Source: Mesonia sp.
GTDB lineage: Bacteria; Bacteroidota; Bacteroidia; Flavobacteriales; Flavobacteriaceae
Direction of reading: 5' to 3'
DNA length: 51,014 bases
Assembly: GCA_012964435.1 (NCBI GenBank)
Contig: DTTX01000046.1
Location: 94,280-145,293, forward strand
Positions 1 to 11,820 of this stretch are shown in pieces. Numbering within the stretch: the stretch's first letter is position 1; each line of letters starts with the position of its first letter. Made by a program: the position numbers and the translations under genes. The notes beneath the pieces were generated by a model. The model was not told where the DNA came from. It saw only the letters and a list, made by a program, of their open reading frames with translations, and ran no database searches.

Positions 1-152
1 GCTTGCGAAACGACCGGATGATGCTTTTTAACCATTGCCAAAAACTCTTCTAAAGAAAAAACATTTTCTTCTTCAGTTAAAGTTTGTTCTTGCGCAACAC
101 TTGCTAACGACAGAGACAAACAGAAGCATAAGTAAATTACTCTTTTTATCAT
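1..152 (-). CDS. TolC-like outer membrane efflux protein, N-terminal fragment
   Basis: Only the first ~50 codons lie in the window; the gene runs off the left edge. The ATG is at 152-150, one base after the stop of the HlyD gene, so translation is probably coupled. The start reads MIKRVIYLCFCLSLSLASVA followed by QEQ, a typical Sec signal peptide with a cleavage site near residue 20. The next segment, containing SLEEFLAMVKKHHPVV, resembles the start of TolC/OEP repeats, where a leucine-rich helix ends in a (N/H)P motif. As the last gene of a regulator-ABC-HlyD set, an outer membrane channel is the expected partner. The TolC assignment is inference from the short motif plus context. Confidence 0.7.
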   Translation of the reverse strand, partial: MIKRVIYLCFCLSLSLASVAQEQTLTEEENVFSLEEFLAMVKKHHPVVSQ

Positions 153-153
153 C

Positions 154-1512
154 TTATTTAGCTTTTTCAGTCGAATCTTTTTGCTGCGTTTTTGGGTAAT
201 AATTTGGCGGGAAACCGTTAAGCTTACGCCAGATCTCGTACCAAATTGGTACATCTTCTAACAATGCCAATGTTCTTGCTCCAGAGCCTACACGTAAAGC
301 ATCGGGCCAATCATGTTCACTTTCCGGATCTGGTTTAATTAATACGCGATACATACCATTATCGCTAATAAAATTCTCTATAGCTACCACTTCACCACCA
401 TAAGTACCGTAGGAGGCATTTGGCCAACCGCTAAAAACGATCGCCGGCCAACCATCAAATTGTACTCGAATGTGATCTCCTATACCAATTAATGGCAGAT
501 CGATAGGCTCGATATAGGTTTCAACAGCAATTTCATAGCCTCTAGGCATGATATTTACCAGTTTTTCTCCTTCTTTGAATGTTTCACCAATACCCGAAAT
601 AATTGCTTTGTTAATGTAACCGTCTTGCGGCGCTCTAACAAAATATAGTCCGCGTCTTATTTCATAATTACTCAAGGAGTTTTCTAACTTACTCACTTGT
701 ACTTCGGTATCTAAACGGGTAGATATCGTTGAAGAAATATCACTCTCGATCTTGCTGATCTTGTTGGCATATTCTGCCTCGATTCGATTAATTTCCATAC
801 GAGCGTTAAGTAATTCGTTTTTACTGGTTAAGAGTTTACTTTCCAGATCGATCACTTTTGCTTGCGTTTCTTGAAGTTTAGATTGCTTCGTTTCATAATC
901 TAATCTCGATTTTAAGCCTTCTTCATATAATTCTTCTATACGATTATACTGACGCTTGGCAATACTTAAATTTACTTCGGCAGCTTTTAAAGAAATACTA
1001 TCACTTACAATTTTTAATTGAGCTTGCTTTAGTTTATTTCGTGTCTGCTCTAATTTTAAAACACGCTCTTTTCTAGCTGAAGCTAATTGGTTTCTTAAAG
1101 CTTCCGTTTTTTGCTCATAAGCTTTAACGGAGTTTGCCTTCGAGTTGACCTGATCGCCGGTTCTTTCTATTAATAACGGATCGAAGTACTCATTCTTTAC
1201 TTCAGAAATTCGTAAAATAGTATCTCCTTTTTCAACTAAATCTCCTTCTTGTACATACCATTCTTCAATCTTACCCGGTATGGGTGATTGTAAAGTTTGC
1301 GGACGTTGACCAGGTCTTAACGTAGTAACGTAACCTTTGCTTTGTATGGTTTGCGTCCACGGAAAAAACAATAGTATTAATAGGAACATACTCGTCCCAA
1401 ATAATATTCTGGAAAGTAACCGATGTACATTTCTATTCACAATAGAATTGTAGGCTTTAAACTTCGAAAAGTTTACATTACCATCGGTTTGACTATTTGA
1501 TAAGTTTAACAT
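154..1512 (-). CDS. HlyD-family membrane fusion (periplasmic adaptor) protein
   Basis: 452 residues. One N-terminal transmembrane helix (about 34-52) is followed by a lipoyl-like half-motif (about 78-105, GKIEEWYVQEGDLVEKGD), a long coiled coil (about 120-290, rich in K, E, L and Q), the second lipoyl half (APQDGYINKAIISGIGE, about 298-314) and a beta-barrel region. This is the order expected for HlyD/EmrA adaptors that link an inner membrane transporter to a TolC channel. The gene lies 9 bases after the ABC-like gene and 1 base before the TolC-like gene, all on the minus strand, so the three form one unit. The coiled coil is long, as in type I secretion adaptors rather than RND adaptors. The exported substrate is unknown. 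Confidence 0.9.
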   Translation of the reverse strand: MLNLSNSQTDGNVNFSKFKAYNSIVNRNVHRLLSRILFGTSMFLLILLFFPWTQTIQSKGYVTTLRPGQRPQTLQSPIPGKIEEWYVQEGDLVEKGDTILRISEVKNEYFDPLLIERTGDQVNSKANSVKAYEQKTEALRNQLASARKERVLKLEQTRNKLKQAQLKIVSDSISLKAAEVNLSIAKRQYNRIEELYEEGLKSRLDYETKQSKLQETQAKVIDLESKLLTSKNELLNARMEINRIEAEYANKISKIESDISSTISTRLDTEVQVSKLENSLSNYEIRRGLYFVRAPQDGYINKAIISGIGETFKEGEKLVNIMPRGYEIAVETYIEPIDLPLIGIGDHIRVQFDGWPAIVFSGWPNASYGTYGGEVVAIENFISDNGMYRVLIKPDPESEHDWPDALRVGSGARTLALLEDVPIWYEIWRKLNGFPPNYYPKTQQKDSTEKAK

Positions 1513-1521
1513 TTTAATTTC

Positions 1522-3123
1522 TTAGTTTAATTCTACTACTCTTAACCTCTCGCCCATCTTCTCTTTACTTGCCAATAGCATCGTCATACTATGATCTTTA
1601 GCAAATTTCATAAGAGTTTCAATATCTTCATCAGAGAATATAAATTCTTCTTCAATTAGTAATAACTCGGGAGCTTTTAATAAAACACGTATTAAACATA
1701 TTTTTTGAGTTAGTACGTGGCTCAACATTCTTGTGCCCGGGAAAACATAGGTATTAATGGTTTCCGGCAAATGTTTAATTTCATTTAAAACTCCAAAATT
1801 TTCCAGTAGGTCGTAAACTTCTTTTTCTGAAATCGAATAATTATTCAACGTAAGGTTTTGCCAGATGGTACCTTCAAATAAGTAATTAGAATTTAAAACC
1901 AACCCTATTTTCTTACGGTAACTATCAAGATTAATGCTCGAGATCTCTTTACGATCTAAGTATATTTTTCCTTTGGTAATACGTTTCATTCCGCCCAGAA
2001 AGTGAAATAGATCATAAATTTGCAAATGGCTTCCCACCAAATTGATCAAATCGCCTTCTTCAACTTTAATATTGTTAATCTGCTTGTAATTTATCTCTAG
2101 ATCTTCAGTTTCTATTGGGAATACATTTAACTCTGTTGTATTTACGGGAGCTTTTCTGTCTATTTTCTGAGAGCTTACTTCATCTATCTTTTCAACAGCG
2201 GTCACTACATCGTAAATGGTTTCTAAGCTAAAACCAATTTTATCGATCGAGTTGATAATTAATACAATAATGATTTCTGAAGCTACGAATTGACCGATAT
2301 TCATTTGCTGATTTAATACCAATAAACCACCAATTAAAAGTAGGCCCAATGTAAGTATTACCTTAAAACCGACTAACTGTTTAAACTGATTTTTTACGAC
2401 TTTAAAGTGTTTTTGTCGATAGCCTAAATATTCTTCAACTAACTCATTATTTTTCTCCTGCTCGTATTCGTTAGGTGTATTTTTAAAGGTTTTAAAGTTA
2501 GCGGCAACCTGTTGTATCCAAAAAGCGATCTTATATTTAGCCTTCGATTCTTTAATACTCGTATTCACTGCTTTTTCTATACTCAGTTTAAACAATACAT
2601 ATAAAAGAATGACCAATACGATCCCTAAACCTATAAAAAACGGATGATAAACCGATAGTAATATTAAACCGAAAATAATTTGGATAACCGCTGCCGGAAA
2701 ATCTAACAGGAGTTTTTCCATCCCTTTTTGAAGCGTTAATACATCAAAAAAACGATTAGATAATTCTGGCGGAAATCTATTTTCTAATTCACTTACTCTA
2801 ATTTTCGGGAATTTATAGATGAACTCAAATGAAGCTCTTGCAAAAATTTTCTCCTGAATATTTTCTACTATATCTAATTGAAGTAATTGCAAAACGCCAA
2901 AAAATCCTACTGCAATAGTTACCAAAACAGTAAGTAAGATCCAAGAAGTAGAAACTTGCGCTCCTTGTATTAAATTAATGATCGCTTGAATACCTAACGG
3001 AAGCGTTAAGCTTATAATACCTGCAAAAACTGCATAATATAGAACCTGAAGAATATCTCTTCGTTCTAATTTTAGCAGGTTAAGAAGTTTTACCCAAGGT
3101 GAAATATCGTTATTTGAACTCAT
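1522..3123 (-). CDS. ABC-exporter-like membrane protein with a degenerate nucleotide-binding domain
   Basis: 533 residues. The N-terminal ~300 residues have the helices of a type I exporter membrane domain (hydrophobic blocks near 29-51, 60-83, 137-180 and 254-295). The C-terminal ~200 residues align by eye with an ABC ATPase, but its motifs are ruined. The Walker A position reads GSHLQIYD (about 364-371) with no GK(S/T). The Q-loop glutamine is Asn (LVLNSNYLF, about 411). The signature LSGGQ is LSHVL (about 467-471). Walker B is LLLIEE with Asp replaced by Glu (about 487-492). The H-loop His is Ser (LLASKE, about 519). The frame is intact and neighbours are 4 and 9 bases away, so this does not look like a decaying pseudogene. 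ATP hydrolysis by this domain is unlikely; it may pair with another half-transporter or be driven differently. Confidence 0.8.
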   Translation of the reverse strand: MSSNNDISPWVKLLNLLKLERRDILQVLYYAVFAGIISLTLPLGIQAIINLIQGAQVSTSWILLTVLVTIAVGFFGVLQLLQLDIVENIQEKIFARASFEFIYKFPKIRVSELENRFPPELSNRFFDVLTLQKGMEKLLLDFPAAVIQIIFGLILLSVYHPFFIGLGIVLVILLYVLFKLSIEKAVNTSIKESKAKYKIAFWIQQVAANFKTFKNTPNEYEQEKNNELVEEYLGYRQKHFKVVKNQFKQLVGFKVILTLGLLLIGGLLVLNQQMNIGQFVASEIIIVLIINSIDKIGFSLETIYDVVTAVEKIDEVSSQKIDRKAPVNTTELNVFPIETEDLEINYKQINNIKVEEGDLINLVGSHLQIYDLFHFLGGMKRITKGKIYLDRKEISSINLDSYRKKIGLVLNSNYLFEGTIWQNLTLNNYSISEKEVYDLLENFGVLNEIKHLPETINTYVFPGTRMLSHVLTQKICLIRVLLKAPELLLIEEEFIFSDEDIETLMKFAKDHSMTMLLASKEKMGERLRVVELN

Positions 3124-3127
3124 AAAT

Positions 3128-3805
3128 TTAGCTGAGTGATTTGAAGGTTAAATGCTGAAAAAACTGCGTAATTGGTTCTTCGTCGGTTTCTTTAAAATCT
3201 GAAAGTTGTTTAAAATGTTGATGTAAAAAGTTTTGCTTTAATGCTCCTTGTAAAATCGTATTTGCTAATGTTAACGGATAACAGTAATCTGGATTATATG
3301 CTTGGATAATTTCGTTTAACCGTTGCACTAATCTTCTGTAAATCGTGAAATAACCGTTTTTGTTTTCTTCATCTACATCAATTGTATGAAAAGCTTTTGA
3401 GTATTCTTGAACAATAATATGATGCAACTCTTCTTCATTTATAAAGCCAAAGGTTTCATCTTTTCGAGGAGTTTCTGTAATAGCGGTTATCGCCCTTTCT
3501 AGAACCTTCTTACTACATTCAATATTATTGATTCTAAAAACGAGCTTATATTCTAACCAACCCCAATACCAAGAAATTAAATACAACATAAGCATATGCT
3601 TATTTTCAAAATAACGATATACAGAACTTTCGTTAGAACTTATTTCGTCTGCTAATTTTTTGAATGTAAACTTCTCTAAACCTTCTTGCCGAATAATTTG
3701 AATAGAATATTCTAAGATCCTTCTTCCTAACTTAGAAGACTGCGGATCTTTAATATAAATATTCTCCGGAATAGTTAAGGTTAAATTTGAAAGTGGAATA
3801 CTCAT
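3128..3805 (-). CDS. TetR/AcrR-family transcriptional regulator
   Basis: 225 residues. The helix-turn-helix is clear at about 47-66 (TFKKLADEISSNESSVYRYF), followed by ENKHMLMLYL as in TetR proteins. The C-terminal ligand domain has no recognisable subfamily. About 25 extra residues precede the first DNA-binding helix. It is the first gene of the minus-strand set and ends 4 bases before the ABC-like gene. Location suggests it controls its own operon, the usual arrangement for TetR regulators of efflux genes. I saw no convincing palindromic operator in the 60 bases upstream of its start. Family assignment is firm; target and ligand are inference. Confidence 0.9.
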   Translation of the reverse strand: MSIPLSNLTLTIPENIYIKDPQSSKLGRRILEYSIQIIRQEGLEKFTFKKLADEISSNESSVYRYFENKHMLMLYLISWYWGWLEYKLVFRINNIECSKKVLERAITAITETPRKDETFGFINEEELHHIIVQEYSKAFHTIDVDEENKNGYFTIYRRLVQRLNEIIQAYNPDYCYPLTLANTILQGALKQNFLHQHFKQLSDFKETDEEPITQFFQHLTFKSLS

Positions 3806-3861
3806 TTATAAAATTTTTACTCACAAGGTTAAAAGTAATACTTTCATTTTAATTTTTCATC

Positions 3862-3900
3862 AAAAAAAATAGCTTTTGCTTATTTTAACATAAAAGCTAT
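3862..3900 (-). terminator. Rho-independent terminator after the DUF2945 gene
   Basis: Nine-base perfect inverted repeat (atagctttt at 3869-3877 and aaaagctat at 3892-3900). On the minus strand it is followed by eight T (3869-3862). It lies 23 bases after the stop at 3924 and separates the small gene from the TetR operon. Confidence 0.8.
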
Positions 3901-3923
3901 TTATTTCACTTAGGATGAAAGAC

Positions 3924-4133
3924 TTATTGTTTCTCGACTTCTTCTTCTAATTTTAAAACAGAACTACCATCATCTTGCTTTATAAATAAGGCTTTATTGC
4001 CCTCTTCACCTTTTCTAGTGATTTCGCTGCCATCGATGGTTTTAGTAACTTCTTTAGTATAGGTTTTTTCAACTTTACCTTTAGCGGTACCATTACCCCA
4101 TTTCCATTTTACTTCACTTCCTTCTTTAATCAT
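3924..4133 (-). CDS. DUF2945 / hypervirulence-associated Tudor-like small protein
   Basis: 69 residues. It shows the pattern of the DUF2945 (HVA1 Tudor) family: an N-terminal GSEVKWKWGNGTAKGKVEK, then SEITRKGEEGN, and an acidic C-terminal strand ending in a conserved Leu-Lys-Glu stretch. The fold is a small SH3/Tudor-like barrel; biochemical function is unknown. It is a cytosolic protein with no signal peptide. It sits 67 bases after the helicase gene on the same strand and has its own terminator. An 11-base inverted repeat ends exactly at its start codon (4134-4179). Confidence 0.85.
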   Translation of the reverse strand: MIKEGSEVKWKWGNGTAKGKVEKTYTKEVTKTIDGSEITRKGEEGNKALFIKQDDGSSVLKLEEEVEKQ

Positions 4134-4200: not shown

Positions 4201-6522
4201 TTATGATAGAATTTTCAATTTAGCAAAACGCAGTAATAATTTTTTCATTCCGCCGGTTTCAAAATCGATCTCTGCTTTTTTATCTTGCCCAATGCCTTCG
4301 ATACTCAGCACTTTACCATTACCAAAACGCATATGTTCTACCAATTGACCGGCTTCAAGTTGAAGCGGAGTATCTGCTTTGGTCGGTGTTGATGCATCTG
4401 CCGGTCGCAATCTTCGCAACTTACGCAACTCATCTTCAGTTGGTTTGTGTGCCGGTGGTGGCGTACCTTTTTTAGGTTTGTTTTGTCGAAGCTTACTTTT
4501 ATCGACTTCTCCAAAAATATCACGATCGATAAGCGGTTTATATTTATAATCGTCCTGAGGAACCATATAATCGAGATATTCATCATCGATCTCTTCTATA
4601 AATCGACTAGGTTCTGCATCGATTAATTTACCCCAACGAAAACGCGATTGTACGTACGTGAGGTAAGCTTGCTTTTCAGCTCGCGTTAATGCCACATAGA
4701 ATAAACGTCGTTCTTCTTCCAATTCAGAACGAGTATTCATACTCATCCCCGAAGGAAAAAGATCTTCTTCTAAACCTACAATATAAACGTAAGGAAACTC
4801 AAGTCCTTTTGCTAAGTGAATCGTCATTAACGCCACACGATCTTCATCTGGTGTTTCTTGATCAAGATCTGTCATTAATGCCACATCTTCTAAAAATTCA
4901 CCTAACGAACCATCTGCATCGGCTAATTCTTGTTGCCCATCAACAAAATCTTGAATACCGTTCAATAATTCTTCAACATTCTCGATACGTGCGATCCCTT
5001 CGGGTGTTCCGTCTTTTTTAAGTTCTTGTACCAAACCGGTTTTTTTAGCAACCGCTTCAGCCACTTCAAAAGCATTCTTATTGCTCGCCATAATCTGAAA
5101 ACTTTTAATCATATTGGTAAAGTTTTTCAGCTTGGTTTGCGTGCCTCTATTGATCTTTAGATCGATTTTTTCTATATTCTCGATCACTTCAAAAATAGAA
5201 CGCTTGTAGTGGTTTGCTGCTAGCGTTAATTTATCCATCGTGGTAGCTCCAATACCTCTCGCCGGGAAATTAATGACACGTTTTAAGGCTTCTTCATCTT
5301 TAGGATTCACGATTAAACGCAAATAAGAAAGAACGTCTTTAATTTCTTTACGTTGGTAAAATGAAAGCCCTCCATAAATTCGATACGGAATGTCTTTTTT
5401 ACGCAGCGCGTCTTCCATCGCACGACTTTGCGCATTGGTACGATATAGAATTGCGAAATCACCATTTTTCATTTGGTGTTCCATCTTATTTTCAAAAATA
5501 GAACTGGCTACAAAACGACCTTCTTCCCCATCGTTTATTAAGCGATTCACGACAATTTTTGGTCCGTCGTCGTTAGCTGTCCAAACTACTTTTTCAAGTT
5601 TGGTTTTATTTTTATCGATCACCGAGTTTGCCGCCTGAACAATATTTTTGGTAGAGCGGTAATTTTGCTCTAATCGATACATTTCTACATTATCGTAATC
5701 TCTTTGGAAATTCAGAATATTATTAATATTCGCTCCACGGAAGGCATAAATACTTTGCGCATCGTCACCTACCACACAAATATTCTGAAATTTATCACTC
5801 AAAGCACGTACAATCAAGTACTGCGAATGGTTGGTATCTTGGTACTCATCTACCAAAATATATCGAAAACGATTCTGATATTTTTGAAGCACATCCGGAA
5901 AACGGTTAAGAAGCTCATTGGTTTTTAGCAATAAATCATCAAAATCCATCGCACCGGCTTTAAAACAACGATCTACATATTCTTTATAGATCTCGCCCAT
6001 ACGAGGCTTTTTAGACATTGCATCGGCTTCTTGCAATTCACCATTTTGAAAATAGGCTTTTACGGTGATCAGACTATTTTTAAAAGAAGAAATTCGAGAA
6101 TAAACCTGTTTATATTTATAAACATCTTTATCTAAACCCATTTCTTTAATGATCGCCCGCAAAACGCTCTGTGAATCTTGCGTGTCGTAAATAGTAAAAT
6201 TGGAAGGATAACCTAATTTATCGGCTTCCATTCTAAGAATTTTGGCAAATATAGAATGGAAAGTTCCCATCCATAAATTTTTAGCTTCGCTGCTTCCTAC
6301 AATACTAGAGATACGATGCTTCATCTCTCTCGCCGCTTTGTTAGTAAAGGTTAGCGATAAGATATTAAAAGGATCTACGCCTTTGCTCATTAAATAAGCA
6401 ATACGATAGGTAAGTACTCTGGTTTTACCGGAGCCCGCACCGGCAATTACAATCATTGGCCCGTCTTTTTGCAAAACAGGAGCTCGTTGGGCATCATTCA
6501 ATTCAGCTAAATAATTTTCCAA
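4201..6522 (-). CDS. ATP-dependent DNA helicase, UvrD/PcrA family (superfamily 1)
   Basis: 773 residues. 3'-5' DNA helicase of excision repair and replication-fork maintenance. Helicase motifs are all present: Walker A GAGSGKT (28-34), motif II DEYQDT (225-230), motif III GDDAQSIYAFRGA (252-264), motif IV QNYRST (286-291), and late motifs TIHLAKGLEFPYVYIVGLE and RRLFYVALTRAEK. The C-terminus has the small Tudor-like module of PcrA/UvrD (VEHMRFGNGKVLSIEG). The best start is TTG at 6522-6520: the protein then begins MENYLAELNDAQ, which matches the family, and no in-frame ATG lies between it and the upstream stop. Divergent from the FMN protein gene across 153 bases. Symbol left open because pcrA and uvrD are both used. 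Confidence 0.92.
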   Translation of the reverse strand: MENYLAELNDAQRAPVLQKDGPMIVIAGAGSGKTRVLTYRIAYLMSKGVDPFNILSLTFTNKAAREMKHRISSIVGSSEAKNLWMGTFHSIFAKILRMEADKLGYPSNFTIYDTQDSQSVLRAIIKEMGLDKDVYKYKQVYSRISSFKNSLITVKAYFQNGELQEADAMSKKPRMGEIYKEYVDRCFKAGAMDFDDLLLKTNELLNRFPDVLQKYQNRFRYILVDEYQDTNHSQYLIVRALSDKFQNICVVGDDAQSIYAFRGANINNILNFQRDYDNVEMYRLEQNYRSTKNIVQAANSVIDKNKTKLEKVVWTANDDGPKIVVNRLINDGEEGRFVASSIFENKMEHQMKNGDFAILYRTNAQSRAMEDALRKKDIPYRIYGGLSFYQRKEIKDVLSYLRLIVNPKDEEALKRVINFPARGIGATTMDKLTLAANHYKRSIFEVIENIEKIDLKINRGTQTKLKNFTNMIKSFQIMASNKNAFEVAEAVAKKTGLVQELKKDGTPEGIARIENVEELLNGIQDFVDGQQELADADGSLGEFLEDVALMTDLDQETPDEDRVALMTIHLAKGLEFPYVYIVGLEEDLFPSGMSMNTRSELEEERRLFYVALTRAEKQAYLTYVQSRFRWGKLIDAEPSRFIEEIDDEYLDYMVPQDDYKYKPLIDRDIFGEVDKSKLRQNKPKKGTPPPAHKPTEDELRKLRRLRPADASTPTKADTPLQLEAGQLVEHMRFGNGKVLSIEGIGQDKKAEIDFETGGMKKLLLRFAKLKILS

Positions 6523-9739: not shown

Positions 9740-11820
9740 TCTTTTAAAATTTTAGACAATACTTTTTGTTGTTTTGCTGAAGCTTTTTCTTTTAAACTGA
9801 ATAACATCGCGCGGTGTTTTTCTTTCGTTGAAAGTTGCCTTAACAGTTCTCTACAAAAGTTTCTAAAACGCCAAACAGGATGTACCGAACCTTGCATTAA
9901 ATCTAAATAATTTTGCTCGGTAAACGATTCGATCTGGTAAAGAAATCCAAATGCATTTTGCCGAATTTCATAAGCGTATTTTGCACTCGTATAACCTGAA
10001 AGTTCTTGGTAAAACTTGCTGTTATTTTCCGGCTGAAACTCCGGAGTAACTAAACTTAAAGTTAGCCAAAGCAAACGAACATTTTTATTACTGAAGCCTT
10101 CGACGTTTTGTAATTCTGTTAAATACTGACTTCTATTTTCGGGGAAGTTTTGCCACAAGTTGAATAACGCTTGCTCTAAAGTTAAGTAAGAACGATCGTT
10201 GAGTAAACCCTCGTATTTTTTTTGCAATGACTGCGGAATTTTCTGTAAATACGTTGAAATTGCTTGTCGCACCAACACATTGTTCGTGTCAAATGCTTTT
10301 CGATAAAGTTGAATAACATCGTCAGGATTTTCCTGCGCCAATTGTGCCACCACTTCTTGCCCTAAATAATCGTTCACGGGGAAGTCTAAAGCTTTATTTA
10401 AACTCTCATATTTTTCTTCCATCGAGATGGTTCGCAATGCGATCAATGAAAGGTATTCTTCCATAAATTCAGATTTACGAAGTGATGCTAAAGCTTGCGA
10501 AGATTTAAATGCCGATTGCGCTAACCAATCTTCTTCAAACTGAGTTAAGTCCATTCCGCTGGTTTTTTCTATTTCAGCAATAAAATCTTCAGTTTCTACA
10601 TTTTGAAAAGCATATTTATTTAGATAGTTTTTCACTCCACTTTTAAAAGCTTCATCACCTACTTTTTCACGAAGTATATGCAACGCCCAAGCTCCTTTTT
10701 GGTAGAATGTAAGCGAGCTTGCTTTGGCATTTTTAAGCGCTTCTCCCTCGCCGGAATCACTTAATTCTTTTAATTTTTCTGCATTTTGATAAAGTTTGAA
10801 GTAAAAATAGTCTTCTCCAAAAATTTCACGTTCGGCCAATAACGCATAATAGGTTGCAAAACCTTCTTGCAACCAATGATGCGTTCCCGACTTTTCGGTG
10901 ACCAAATCGCCAAACCACTGGTGTGCCAATTCGTGTGCGTTGACATTCACATAATTTCTGTCGATAAAACCAATTTGATCGACCATAAACATATCTGAAA
11001 AAATAGTCGCCGTCGTATTTTCCATCCCGGCATAAAGAAAATCTCTTACAGGGATTTGCTTGTAATTTTGCCACGGATAAGCCACGCCTATTTCTTCTTC
11101 AAAAAAATCGAATATCTTTTTTGAATGCTTGTATGTCCACGCTACTTTTTCTTCATCTTGAGCTTCGTAATATAATTTTATAGGAATTCCACTGGTCGAA
11201 GTGATTTCTTTAGCTTCGAATTTCCCAACCGCAACTGCGACTAAATAACTACTCATCGGGTGTTGCATATCAAAATGCCAAAGCTGCTCTTTTCCTTTTT
11301 TTTCTTTATTTACTAATTTCCCGTTGGCGGCAACTTCATAATTTTGCGGAACTTGATACGAGAGATCAAACTCAATTTTATCATTCATATCATCTAAACT
11401 TGGCAGCCAATGTGAAGTGTATTTTCCTTGCCCTTGCGACCAAATTTGGTTACTACCGTCGTTATCCCAACCTACAAAATATAGGGTTTGTTGAGGAGTT
11501 GCTTGATAAGTAAATTCAACTTCATAAGTTTTGCCCGCTTCAAACTGATCAATAAAATAAATTTTCTTTTCTGCGGAAAAAATCTTCGGTTTAGAACTCG
11601 ACTTTTTAGAAATTTCAGCATTCATATTTACCGCGTCTAAATAAATAGAATCGGTCGCTTGTAAAACTTTAAACTTCACCTGAAGTTTACCTTCAACACT
11701 TTCAGTTTTAGGTAATAAATGAATGGTTCCCGAAATTTTTTCTACATCTAAAACTTCGATTTGTTGCGCGTTAATAAAAAAAGGACTTGCCAATAATAGC
11801 AGCCAAACTATTTTTTGCAT
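9736..11820 (-). CDS. M1 family zinc aminopeptidase, exported
   Basis: 694 residues. Signal peptide MQKIVWLLLLASPFFINAQQ with a likely cleavage after about residue 18. The exopeptidase motif is AGMEN (264-268, the GAMEN equivalent). The zinc site is HELAH (296-300) followed after 18 residues by Glu319 in WLQEG, the M1 arrangement. The C-terminal half is a helical domain. It probably trims peptides in the periplasm. It is the first gene of a two-gene unit with the patatin protein. It is shorter than PepN (~870 residues) but usual for Bacteroidota M1 enzymes. Confidence 0.92.
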   Translation of the reverse strand: MQKIVWLLLLASPFFINAQQIEVLDVEKISGTIHLLPKTESVEGKLQVKFKVLQATDSIYLDAVNMNAEISKKSSSKPKIFSAEKKIYFIDQFEAGKTYEVEFTYQATPQQTLYFVGWDNDGSNQIWSQGQGKYTSHWLPSLDDMNDKIEFDLSYQVPQNYEVAANGKLVNKEKKGKEQLWHFDMQHPMSSYLVAVAVGKFEAKEITSTSGIPIKLYYEAQDEEKVAWTYKHSKKIFDFFEEEIGVAYPWQNYKQIPVRDFLYAGMENTTATIFSDMFMVDQIGFIDRNYVNVNAHELAHQWFGDLVTEKSGTHHWLQEGFATYYALLAEREIFGEDYFYFKLYQNAEKLKELSDSGEGEALKNAKASSLTFYQKGAWALHILREKVGDEAFKSGVKNYLNKYAFQNVETEDFIAEIEKTSGMDLTQFEEDWLAQSAFKSSQALASLRKSEFMEEYLSLIALRTISMEEKYESLNKALDFPVNDYLGQEVVAQLAQENPDDVIQLYRKAFDTNNVLVRQAISTYLQKIPQSLQKKYEGLLNDRSYLTLEQALFNLWQNFPENRSQYLTELQNVEGFSNKNVRLLWLTLSLVTPEFQPENNSKFYQELSGYTSAKYAYEIRQNAFGFLYQIESFTEQNYLDLMQGSVHPVWRFRNFCRELLRQLSTKEKHRAMLFSLKEKASAKQQKVLSKILKE

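Follow-up and report, generated by a model that had tools for sequence, protein, structure and literature searches.

An ABC-exporter-like protein with degenerate ATPase motifs in a TetR-HlyD-TolC cassette of Bacteroidota, and its relatives without an ATPase domain

Introduction

The closest described relatives of the locus reported here are the type 1 secretion systems and other ABC tripartite exporters (HlyB-HlyD-TolC, PCAT, LssB-like), with which it shares the ABC-HlyD-TolC gene order and the exporter fold. The locus lies at the start of a 51,014-nucleotide contig stretch of Mesonia sp. (C46:94280-145293; this whole stretch is called “the window” below) and is a minus-strand cassette of genes for a TetR-type regulator, an ABC-exporter-like protein, a HlyD-type adaptor and a TolC-type channel. 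In contrast to type 1 secretion, this cassette and its relatives have no working ATPase or no nucleotide-binding domain (NBD) at all, show putative TetR control and, among the flanking open reading frames compared, have no widely recurring cargo-like neighbour. From the motifs and the gene content we conclude that the inner-membrane component itself very probably does not hydrolyse ATP.

Loss of catalytic residues is also found in one half of the heterodimeric ABC exporters with a degenerate site, such as TM287/288, TmrAB and BmrCD. These exporters keep one active composite site and have a known partner, whereas here all motifs are lost and there is no linked or co-inherited partner. A second precedent is SbmA/BacA (SLiPT), a type IV ABC-exporter transmembrane domain (TMD) without an NBD, as are the NBD-less relatives described below (PMC13316013). 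According to the same source, the proposed ancestors of SbmA-type transporters are ABC transporters that lost the NBD and the coupling helices; SLiPTs are peptide importers energised by the proton gradient, with an extra TM0 domain, a glutamate ladder and no coupling helices (PMC13316013). The family described here, in contrast, travels with hlyD and tolC, and its NBD-less model keeps short cytosolic helices; moreover, the window protein keeps a degenerate NBD, and only its NBD-less relatives match SLiPTs in the absence of that domain.

Tripartite pumps are described as ABC-, RND- or MFS-driven (PMC8277102). Among the titles and abstract starts of the matches listed from the open-licence PubMed Central literature, we found no description of the present exporter family. 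Whereas the exporter fold, HlyD, TolC, TetR and the SbmA precedent are known, the HlyD-TolC-coupled version with a lost NBD and graded forms is apparently undescribed.

Results

The cassette in the window

The cassette comprises the following features, all on the minus strand:

1..152, minus strand, TolC-type outer-membrane channel, start only; the remainder lies outside the window (L031 9018-10432)
154..1512, minus strand, HlyD-type periplasmic adaptor, 452 residues, Pfam HlyD_3, NCBIfam TIGR01843 below cut-off
1522..3123, minus strand, ABC-exporter-like protein, 533 residues, Pfam ABC_membrane and weak ABC_tran
1525..2148, minus strand, degenerate NBD-like domain, residues 326-533, folded in the model and without catalytic motifs
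2011..2034, minus strand, remnant of the Walker A loop (GSHLQIYD, residues 364-371), shortened by one column and without the Lys
2173..3123, minus strand, type IV ABC-exporter TMD, residues 1-317, assigned by PF00664, column conservation, models and Foldseek
2275..2277, minus strand, Glu283 in transmembrane helix 6 (TM6), inferred candidate ion-coupling residue, conserved with and without the NBD
3128..3805, minus strand, TetR-type regulator, first gene of the operon, Pfam TetR_N, with a homologue just upstream in 26 of 30 relatives

The four genes are as tightly packed as the initial annotation of the window had it, with intergenic gaps of 4, 9 and 1 bases from TetR to TolC. The ABC-like protein exceeds the Pfam cut-off for ABC_membrane (PF00664; 36.3 bits, cut-off 28) and weakly that for ABC_tran (32.5 bits, cut-off 25). 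It stays far under the cut-offs of the NCBIfam models (best 25 of 46 matched), the top ones being NHLP and type I secretion exporters. The HlyD-type protein scores 96.5 bits against TIGR01843, under the cut-off of 208.65, and the TolC portion beyond the window belongs to Pfam OEP. Just beyond window base 1, a 10-N assembly gap lies inside tolC (L031 about 10271-10280).

Catalytic motifs across the family

We aligned 104 NBD-like domains, six of which are canonical exporter controls, accepting signature strings that included the variants present in the controls (LSTGQ was not on the list). In the window protein, Walker A reads G364-SHLQ-IYD, the Q-loop carries Asn, the signature reads LSHVL, the Walker B Asp is replaced by Glu and the H-loop is without His. 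Because the controls in the same alignment keep their motifs (Walker A Lys, Q-loop Gln, LSGGQ-like signature, Walker B Asp and His in 6/6 each; catalytic Glu in five, Asp in one), these losses are not alignment artefacts, and all five changes that the initial annotation had read from the window alone are confirmed.

The state of the window protein is shared by its genus. Walker A Lys, Q-loop Gln, signature, Walker B Asp and His are found in none of the 10 members with the cassette, so the five-motif feature of ATP-hydrolysing type IV ABC exporters is absent from 10/10; the PF00664 TMD that also characterises such exporters is present in the window protein, together with a fold match. A Glu persists directly after the Walker B Asp position, at the catalytic position, in seven of the 10. 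The Walker A loop is shorter by one column, and about 15 residues ahead of it all 10 proteins have a 7-column gap, at the site where the A-loop would presumably lie.

Outside the genus, 71 other relatives are degenerate in a different balance (Table 1). In a deeper group of 17 proteins outside the window's class, the most intact that we found, Walker A Lys, Walker B Asp and Glu are complete, although strict LSGGQ occurs in none of them and LSTGQ in two (L132, L133). Close homologues with intact motifs, named in the initial annotation as a sign of a decaying copy, did not turn up: the 17 relatives with Walker A and B are distant and lack Q-loop Gln and strict LSGGQ. Judged by this alignment, the motifs are lost stepwise, with a full canonical set missing even from the best-preserved members. 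Walker A Lys is also gone in L109, whose position in the tree is unsure because of its long branch.

Table 1. Motif residues by group
Window genus (10 proteins): Walker A Lys 0; Q-loop Gln 0; signature 0; Walker B Asp 0; catalytic Glu 7; His 0
Other degenerate relatives (71): Walker A Lys 69; Q-loop Gln, with a shift of one column allowed, 16; signature 0; Walker B Asp 3; catalytic position Glu 8, Asp 55; His, with the same shift allowed, 1
Most intact group (17): Walker A Lys 17; Q-loop Gln 0 at the column itself, 2 with a shift of one column allowed; signature Gly 14; Walker B Asp 17; catalytic Glu 17; His 14

Relatives without any ATPase domain

A profile search of 395 genomes drawn evenly from the phylum gave a match in 97. 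In six of these 97 genomes the match stops at model column 322-343 of 555, and the six loci encode TMD-only proteins of 332-339 residues directly ahead of HlyD and TolC. A contig scan queried with these six NBD-less sequences returned at least 565 relatives, of which we examined the best 80: in 64 loci the TMD frame contains no NBD match. Because the query was itself NBD-less, 64/80 is not a natural frequency, for which the even draw gave 6/97. HlyD follows next in 64/64 of these loci and TolC in 62/64; in the two others (L201, L221) the available stretch ends 1.2-1.5 kb past the TMD gene. In 41/64 loci the first 8 bases of hlyD lie within the TMD gene and, since the largest gap is 118 bases, no NBD fits between the two genes. 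The TMD proteins have 330-369 residues, except L217 with 465 from its first start codon, and they come from genera including Pedobacter, Mucilaginibacter, Sphingobacterium, Dyadobacter, Hymenobacter, Spirosoma and Larkinella. These NBD-less relatives with HlyD and TolC extend the finding past what the window sequence showed.

In a careful tree the first six NBD-less sequences form one clade (100/99), and in a quick tree of 106 TMDs all 67 NBD-less rows form one group (SH-aLRT, the Shimodaira-Hasegawa-like approximate likelihood ratio test, 99) near Runella- and Telluribacter-type proteins with a degenerate NBD. With tree roots that are not independently fixed, this fits one NBD deletion followed by long maintenance. 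The Walker A loss of the window genus lies on a branch separate from the NBD-less group. One operon, in Flavobacterium sp. SUN052 (L214), stands among Spirosomataceae-type rows and, to judge by this placement, was probably acquired by horizontal transfer. L237, cut by a contig end, is absent from the 106-row tree and the helix-relaxation test below and present in the 168-row and motif tables; the 70 NBD-less rows of the conservation and relaxation sets include four apparent duplicates (L091/L210, L094/L158, L095/L167, L096/L168; L158 is 100% identical and the contigs agree in length), leaving about 66 distinct and the count of 64/80 unaffected.

The missing domain does not appear to have moved elsewhere. 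An NBD profile found no better match in the six NBD-less genomes than 132 bits, for a 612-residue full exporter, compared with 367-416 bits in two NBD-bearing genomes, which show the scale only; canonical exporters reach at most 143 bits in all eight. At these scores no relocated NBD is evident, and we rejected a relocated copy for the six genomes. SbmA/BacA membership was likewise rejected: in a scan of five NBD-less proteins, four of them distinct, PF00664 is the sole Pfam family to exceed its cut-off, no SbmA/BacA model is among the matches, and the NBD-less model keeps short cytosolic helices.

Recurrence of the operon and its surroundings

The gene order that the initial annotation proposed to look for in other genomes does recur. 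ABC, HlyD and TolC genes are consecutive in all of the first 30 relatives, with TetR recognised in 26. Of 88 loci whose TMD frame could be scored, 83 have HlyD and TolC downstream in the same orientation, the five misses being L121, L124 (contig end), L125 (HlyD only), L130 (TolC only) and L131 (broken frame); L093, an ABC-HlyD-TolC locus missed by the gene caller and read by hand, is additional to the 83. L131, which is split across two frames, was excluded from later alignments, and L150 is a tail fragment. In 49/88 loci a recognisable TetR gene of the same orientation stands one or two genes upstream, and in 2/88 one of the opposite orientation. By these counts one feature of type 1 secretion, HlyD and TolC encoded beside the inner-membrane component, is present (83/88 loci); the other, an ATP-hydrolysing ABC motor, is absent by motif, and in 64 loci the domain itself is gone.

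Outside the genus the flanking genes vary. Among 583 flanking open reading frames (ORFs) of 78 loci there is no widely recurring neighbour family, the biggest cluster covering 11 loci and the next 5. For a dedicated secreted cargo this comparison covered flanking ORFs of at least 80 residues, and among these no conserved candidate recurs in more than 11 of the 78 loci.

Some loci carry additions. N-terminal extensions of about 105-250 residues precede the TMD in L110-L120, L122, L123 and L125-L130, with no credible Pfam domain in the six scanned. A 4HBT thioesterase gene stands between hlyD and tolC in L104 (8949-9329), a possible, faint hint of lipid-like substrates, and L097 has a gene for 127 residues at the same spot. 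Relatives on plasmid records (Aureibacter, Persicobacter, Riemerella anatipestifer) show 34-36% identity over 80-91% of the query; five of these seven are annotated as “ABC transporter ATP-binding protein”, a name that would mask any ATPase loss.

Selection on the ATPase-like domain

Near-full-length relatives (33-100% identity) occur in 30 of 60 genomes, including the window's own, and none has an internal stop. We estimated the ratio of nonsynonymous to synonymous substitution rates (dN/dS) after Nei-Gojobori for 24 genus pairs, of which only four have dS < 1. In these four unsaturated pairs, which exclude the window's own gene, dN/dS of the NBD-like domain is 0.031, 0.045, 0.046 and 0.091; the nearest pair of the window gene gives 0.053 at a dS of 1.30. 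For most of the remaining pairs dS is saturated or undefined, and the defined NBD values do not exceed 0.22. Across genus pairs the NBD-like domain exceeds the TMD in dN by a factor of about 1.4-3.2, and of 61 columns invariant over 30 sequences 54 fall in the TMD, the strongly conserved core of the protein. On these estimates the NBD-like domain is constrained, if less so than the TMD, and under purifying selection. The ratio of 0.03-0.09 in 4/24 pairs is not near 1, the value that the initial annotation had linked to decay. Its reading of the protein as selected although non-hydrolysing is supported, and the TetR-ABC-HlyD-TolC operon around it recurs.

Structure models and conserved membrane residues

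The AlphaFold model of the window protein has a mean predicted local distance difference test score (pLDDT) of 76.8, with 70-92 in the NBD part (blocks of ten) and less than 50 in parts of the TMD. The model of an NBD-less relative reaches 86.6 and adopts the exporter fold. Foldseek matches of the two models include PCAT1, TM287/288 and HlyB. The highest template modelling score (TM-score) among the 50 matches listed for the NBD-less model, 0.82 at a root mean square deviation (rmsd) of 2.9, belongs to HlyB of the HlyB/D complex, a match that ranks 30 by E-value.

Residues N123, R124, K133, S193 and K196 are invariant in 168/168 rows regardless of NBD state. Position 283 holds Glu in 166 and Asp in two of the 168 rows (a few of them duplicated), and position 295 holds Lys in 165/168. 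Glu283 is helical in both models; residues 274-286 have a pLDDT below 50 in the window model and 89-91 in the same stretch of the NBD-less model.

Proposed mechanism and points against it

Bringing these results together, we propose that an ABC-type TMD dimer in the inner membrane, the HlyD adaptor and the TolC duct would form a TetR-controlled tripartite exporter. The TMD would do the work in it, with the ATPase-like domain of the window protein serving as a scaffold or regulator without catalysis. The dimer would pass its substrate, small and possibly lipid-like, to the HlyD-TolC duct; transport might be driven by an ion gradient, as protons drive the NBD-less SbmA/BacA, with Glu283 in TM6 as the prime candidate for coupling. 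Until it binds a ligand, TetR would keep the operon repressed by way of the palindrome at 3832-3844. We regard export without an ATPase of its own together with ion-gradient drive as a tentative reading that falls somewhat short of probable. A little more tentative still is its wider form, in which these are Bacteroidota-wide envelope-spanning exporters whose type-1-secretion-like ABC motor became an ion-driven secondary transporter while HlyD and TolC were kept. The living forms look like steps of such a change, from Walker motifs partly kept, through degenerate, to Walker A lost (the window) or, on the other branch, the NBD gone.

If true, the family would be an export counterpart of SbmA and would place another engine for tripartite pumps beside ABC, RND and MFS. 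It would also offer a natural series for the change from primary to secondary transporter, or for the use of the exporter fold as a gate, and the question is testable because NBD-less members occur in the culturable Pedobacter, Mucilaginibacter, Hymenobacter and Spirosoma.

Several observations weigh against this proposal. Export by family members is predicted from genes and models, and ion-gradient drive is a first guess by analogy, plus a candidate residue. Glu283 is equally constant in the most intact group of 17 and therefore did not arise with ATPase loss, and Lys295 is as constant there or nearly so; as far as the alignment tells, Glu283 and Lys295 mark the family and not the loss, and an acidic residue gained with the loss was ruled out on the same ground. 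Nucleotide binding may still be relevant in the 69/71 relatives outside the genus that bear the Walker A Lys. Foldseek superposes the window model poorly (TM-score 0.51-0.68, rmsd > 12). The NBD-less model has short helices (116-119, 216-220) where, judged by position, coupling helices lie, and these speak for an ATPase in trans, which would need docking sites. In the NBD-less forms coupling helix 2, one of 8 regions tried, shows weak relaxation at 3.6% of circular shifts, and coupling helix 1 is not relaxed and shows the opposite trend; relaxed coupling helices were not relied on. Finally, the control for the NBD profile is not independent, because both control genomes supplied sequences to the profile.

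Alternative energy sources and functions

An ATPase acting in trans, such that the protein pairs with or borrows the NBDs of a housekeeping canonical ABC exporter encoded elsewhere, seems unlikely, but it is the alternative that survives best. Candidates would be at hand: at least three canonical exporters of similar size, matched by length and score, are present in 16/16 genus genomes, 10 with and six without the cassette, and another NBD-bearing ORF lies in the fetched stretch of 4/64 NBD-less loci (L162, L170, L181, L210). The short cytosolic helices remain at the place where an NBD would dock, and degenerate sites are common, being counted in 21 of 29 human non-homodimeric ABC transporters (PMC7756269). 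Yet no exporter tracks the cassette. One extra canonical exporter is found in each of G006, G014 and G015 and a weak extra match in G007, and because the three exporters are there with or without the cassette, there is no co-inherited partner; nor is a partner half encoded beside the cassette. A dedicated unlinked partner was accordingly rejected within the limits of this census by length and score. Composite sites would moreover need the signature of this subunit, which is lost in 81/81 rows outside the most intact group, and no specific NBD was found elsewhere in the six NBD-less genomes. The initial annotation is thus partly supported, in its selected, non-hydrolysing protein; a co-inherited unlinked active half is not supported.

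Rather improbable, too, is a passive or substrate-gated conduit or receptor, in which the TMD would gate or sense the HlyD-TolC duct while other pumps deliver substrates to the periplasm. TMD and HlyD are both conserved and the ATPase domain can be missing, as in the NBD-less loci, as such a role would have it; the cytosolic loops and TM6, however, hold conserved charged residues that suggest a moving transporter and not an anchor, and Pfam detects no signalling domain in the window protein or the five NBD-less proteins.

We consider a non-canonical active ATPase, whose changed motifs would retain ATP binding and slow hydrolysis, very improbable: the Walker A Lys of most relatives outside the genus, the acidic residues that often remain at Walker B and the LSTGQ of two distant relatives would allow it, but the window genus is without Walker A Lys, signature and H-loop His, and the NBD-less forms have no such domain. 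A decaying ABC exporter operon on its way to loss is hardly credible and was rejected, since its accessory distribution in the genus (see below) and the faster NBD-like domain are outweighed by intact frames in all 30 near-full-length relatives, the low dN/dS, a degenerate state that spans the order and beyond, and an NBD-less group of 67 tree rows.

Regulation and genomic site

Two further features lie upstream of the TetR gene:

3824..3831, minus strand, TAACCTTG, one mismatch from TAnnTTTG, adjoining the palindrome
3832..3844, no strand assigned, palindrome AAAGTATTACTTT, candidate TetR operator

By eye, AGTATTACT or AGTAATACT is found upstream of TetR in 10/10 genus loci, and exact TAnnTTTG, which we take to be the consensus of the Bacteroidota -7 element, in at least five sister loci. 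The palindrome and the TAnnTTTG-like element make the stretch 3806-3925 a candidate autoregulatory operator.

Of the 16 genus genomes 10 carry the cassette, which sits between uvrD (window 4201-6522) and a yciO-like gene (L031 8342-8959). In the sixth cassette-free genome (G007) no yciO-like gene lies within 8.4 kb beyond uvrD. In the five others the two flanking genes are adjacent, about 135-460 bases apart, and for this reason the cassette seems to have been gained or lost as a unit.

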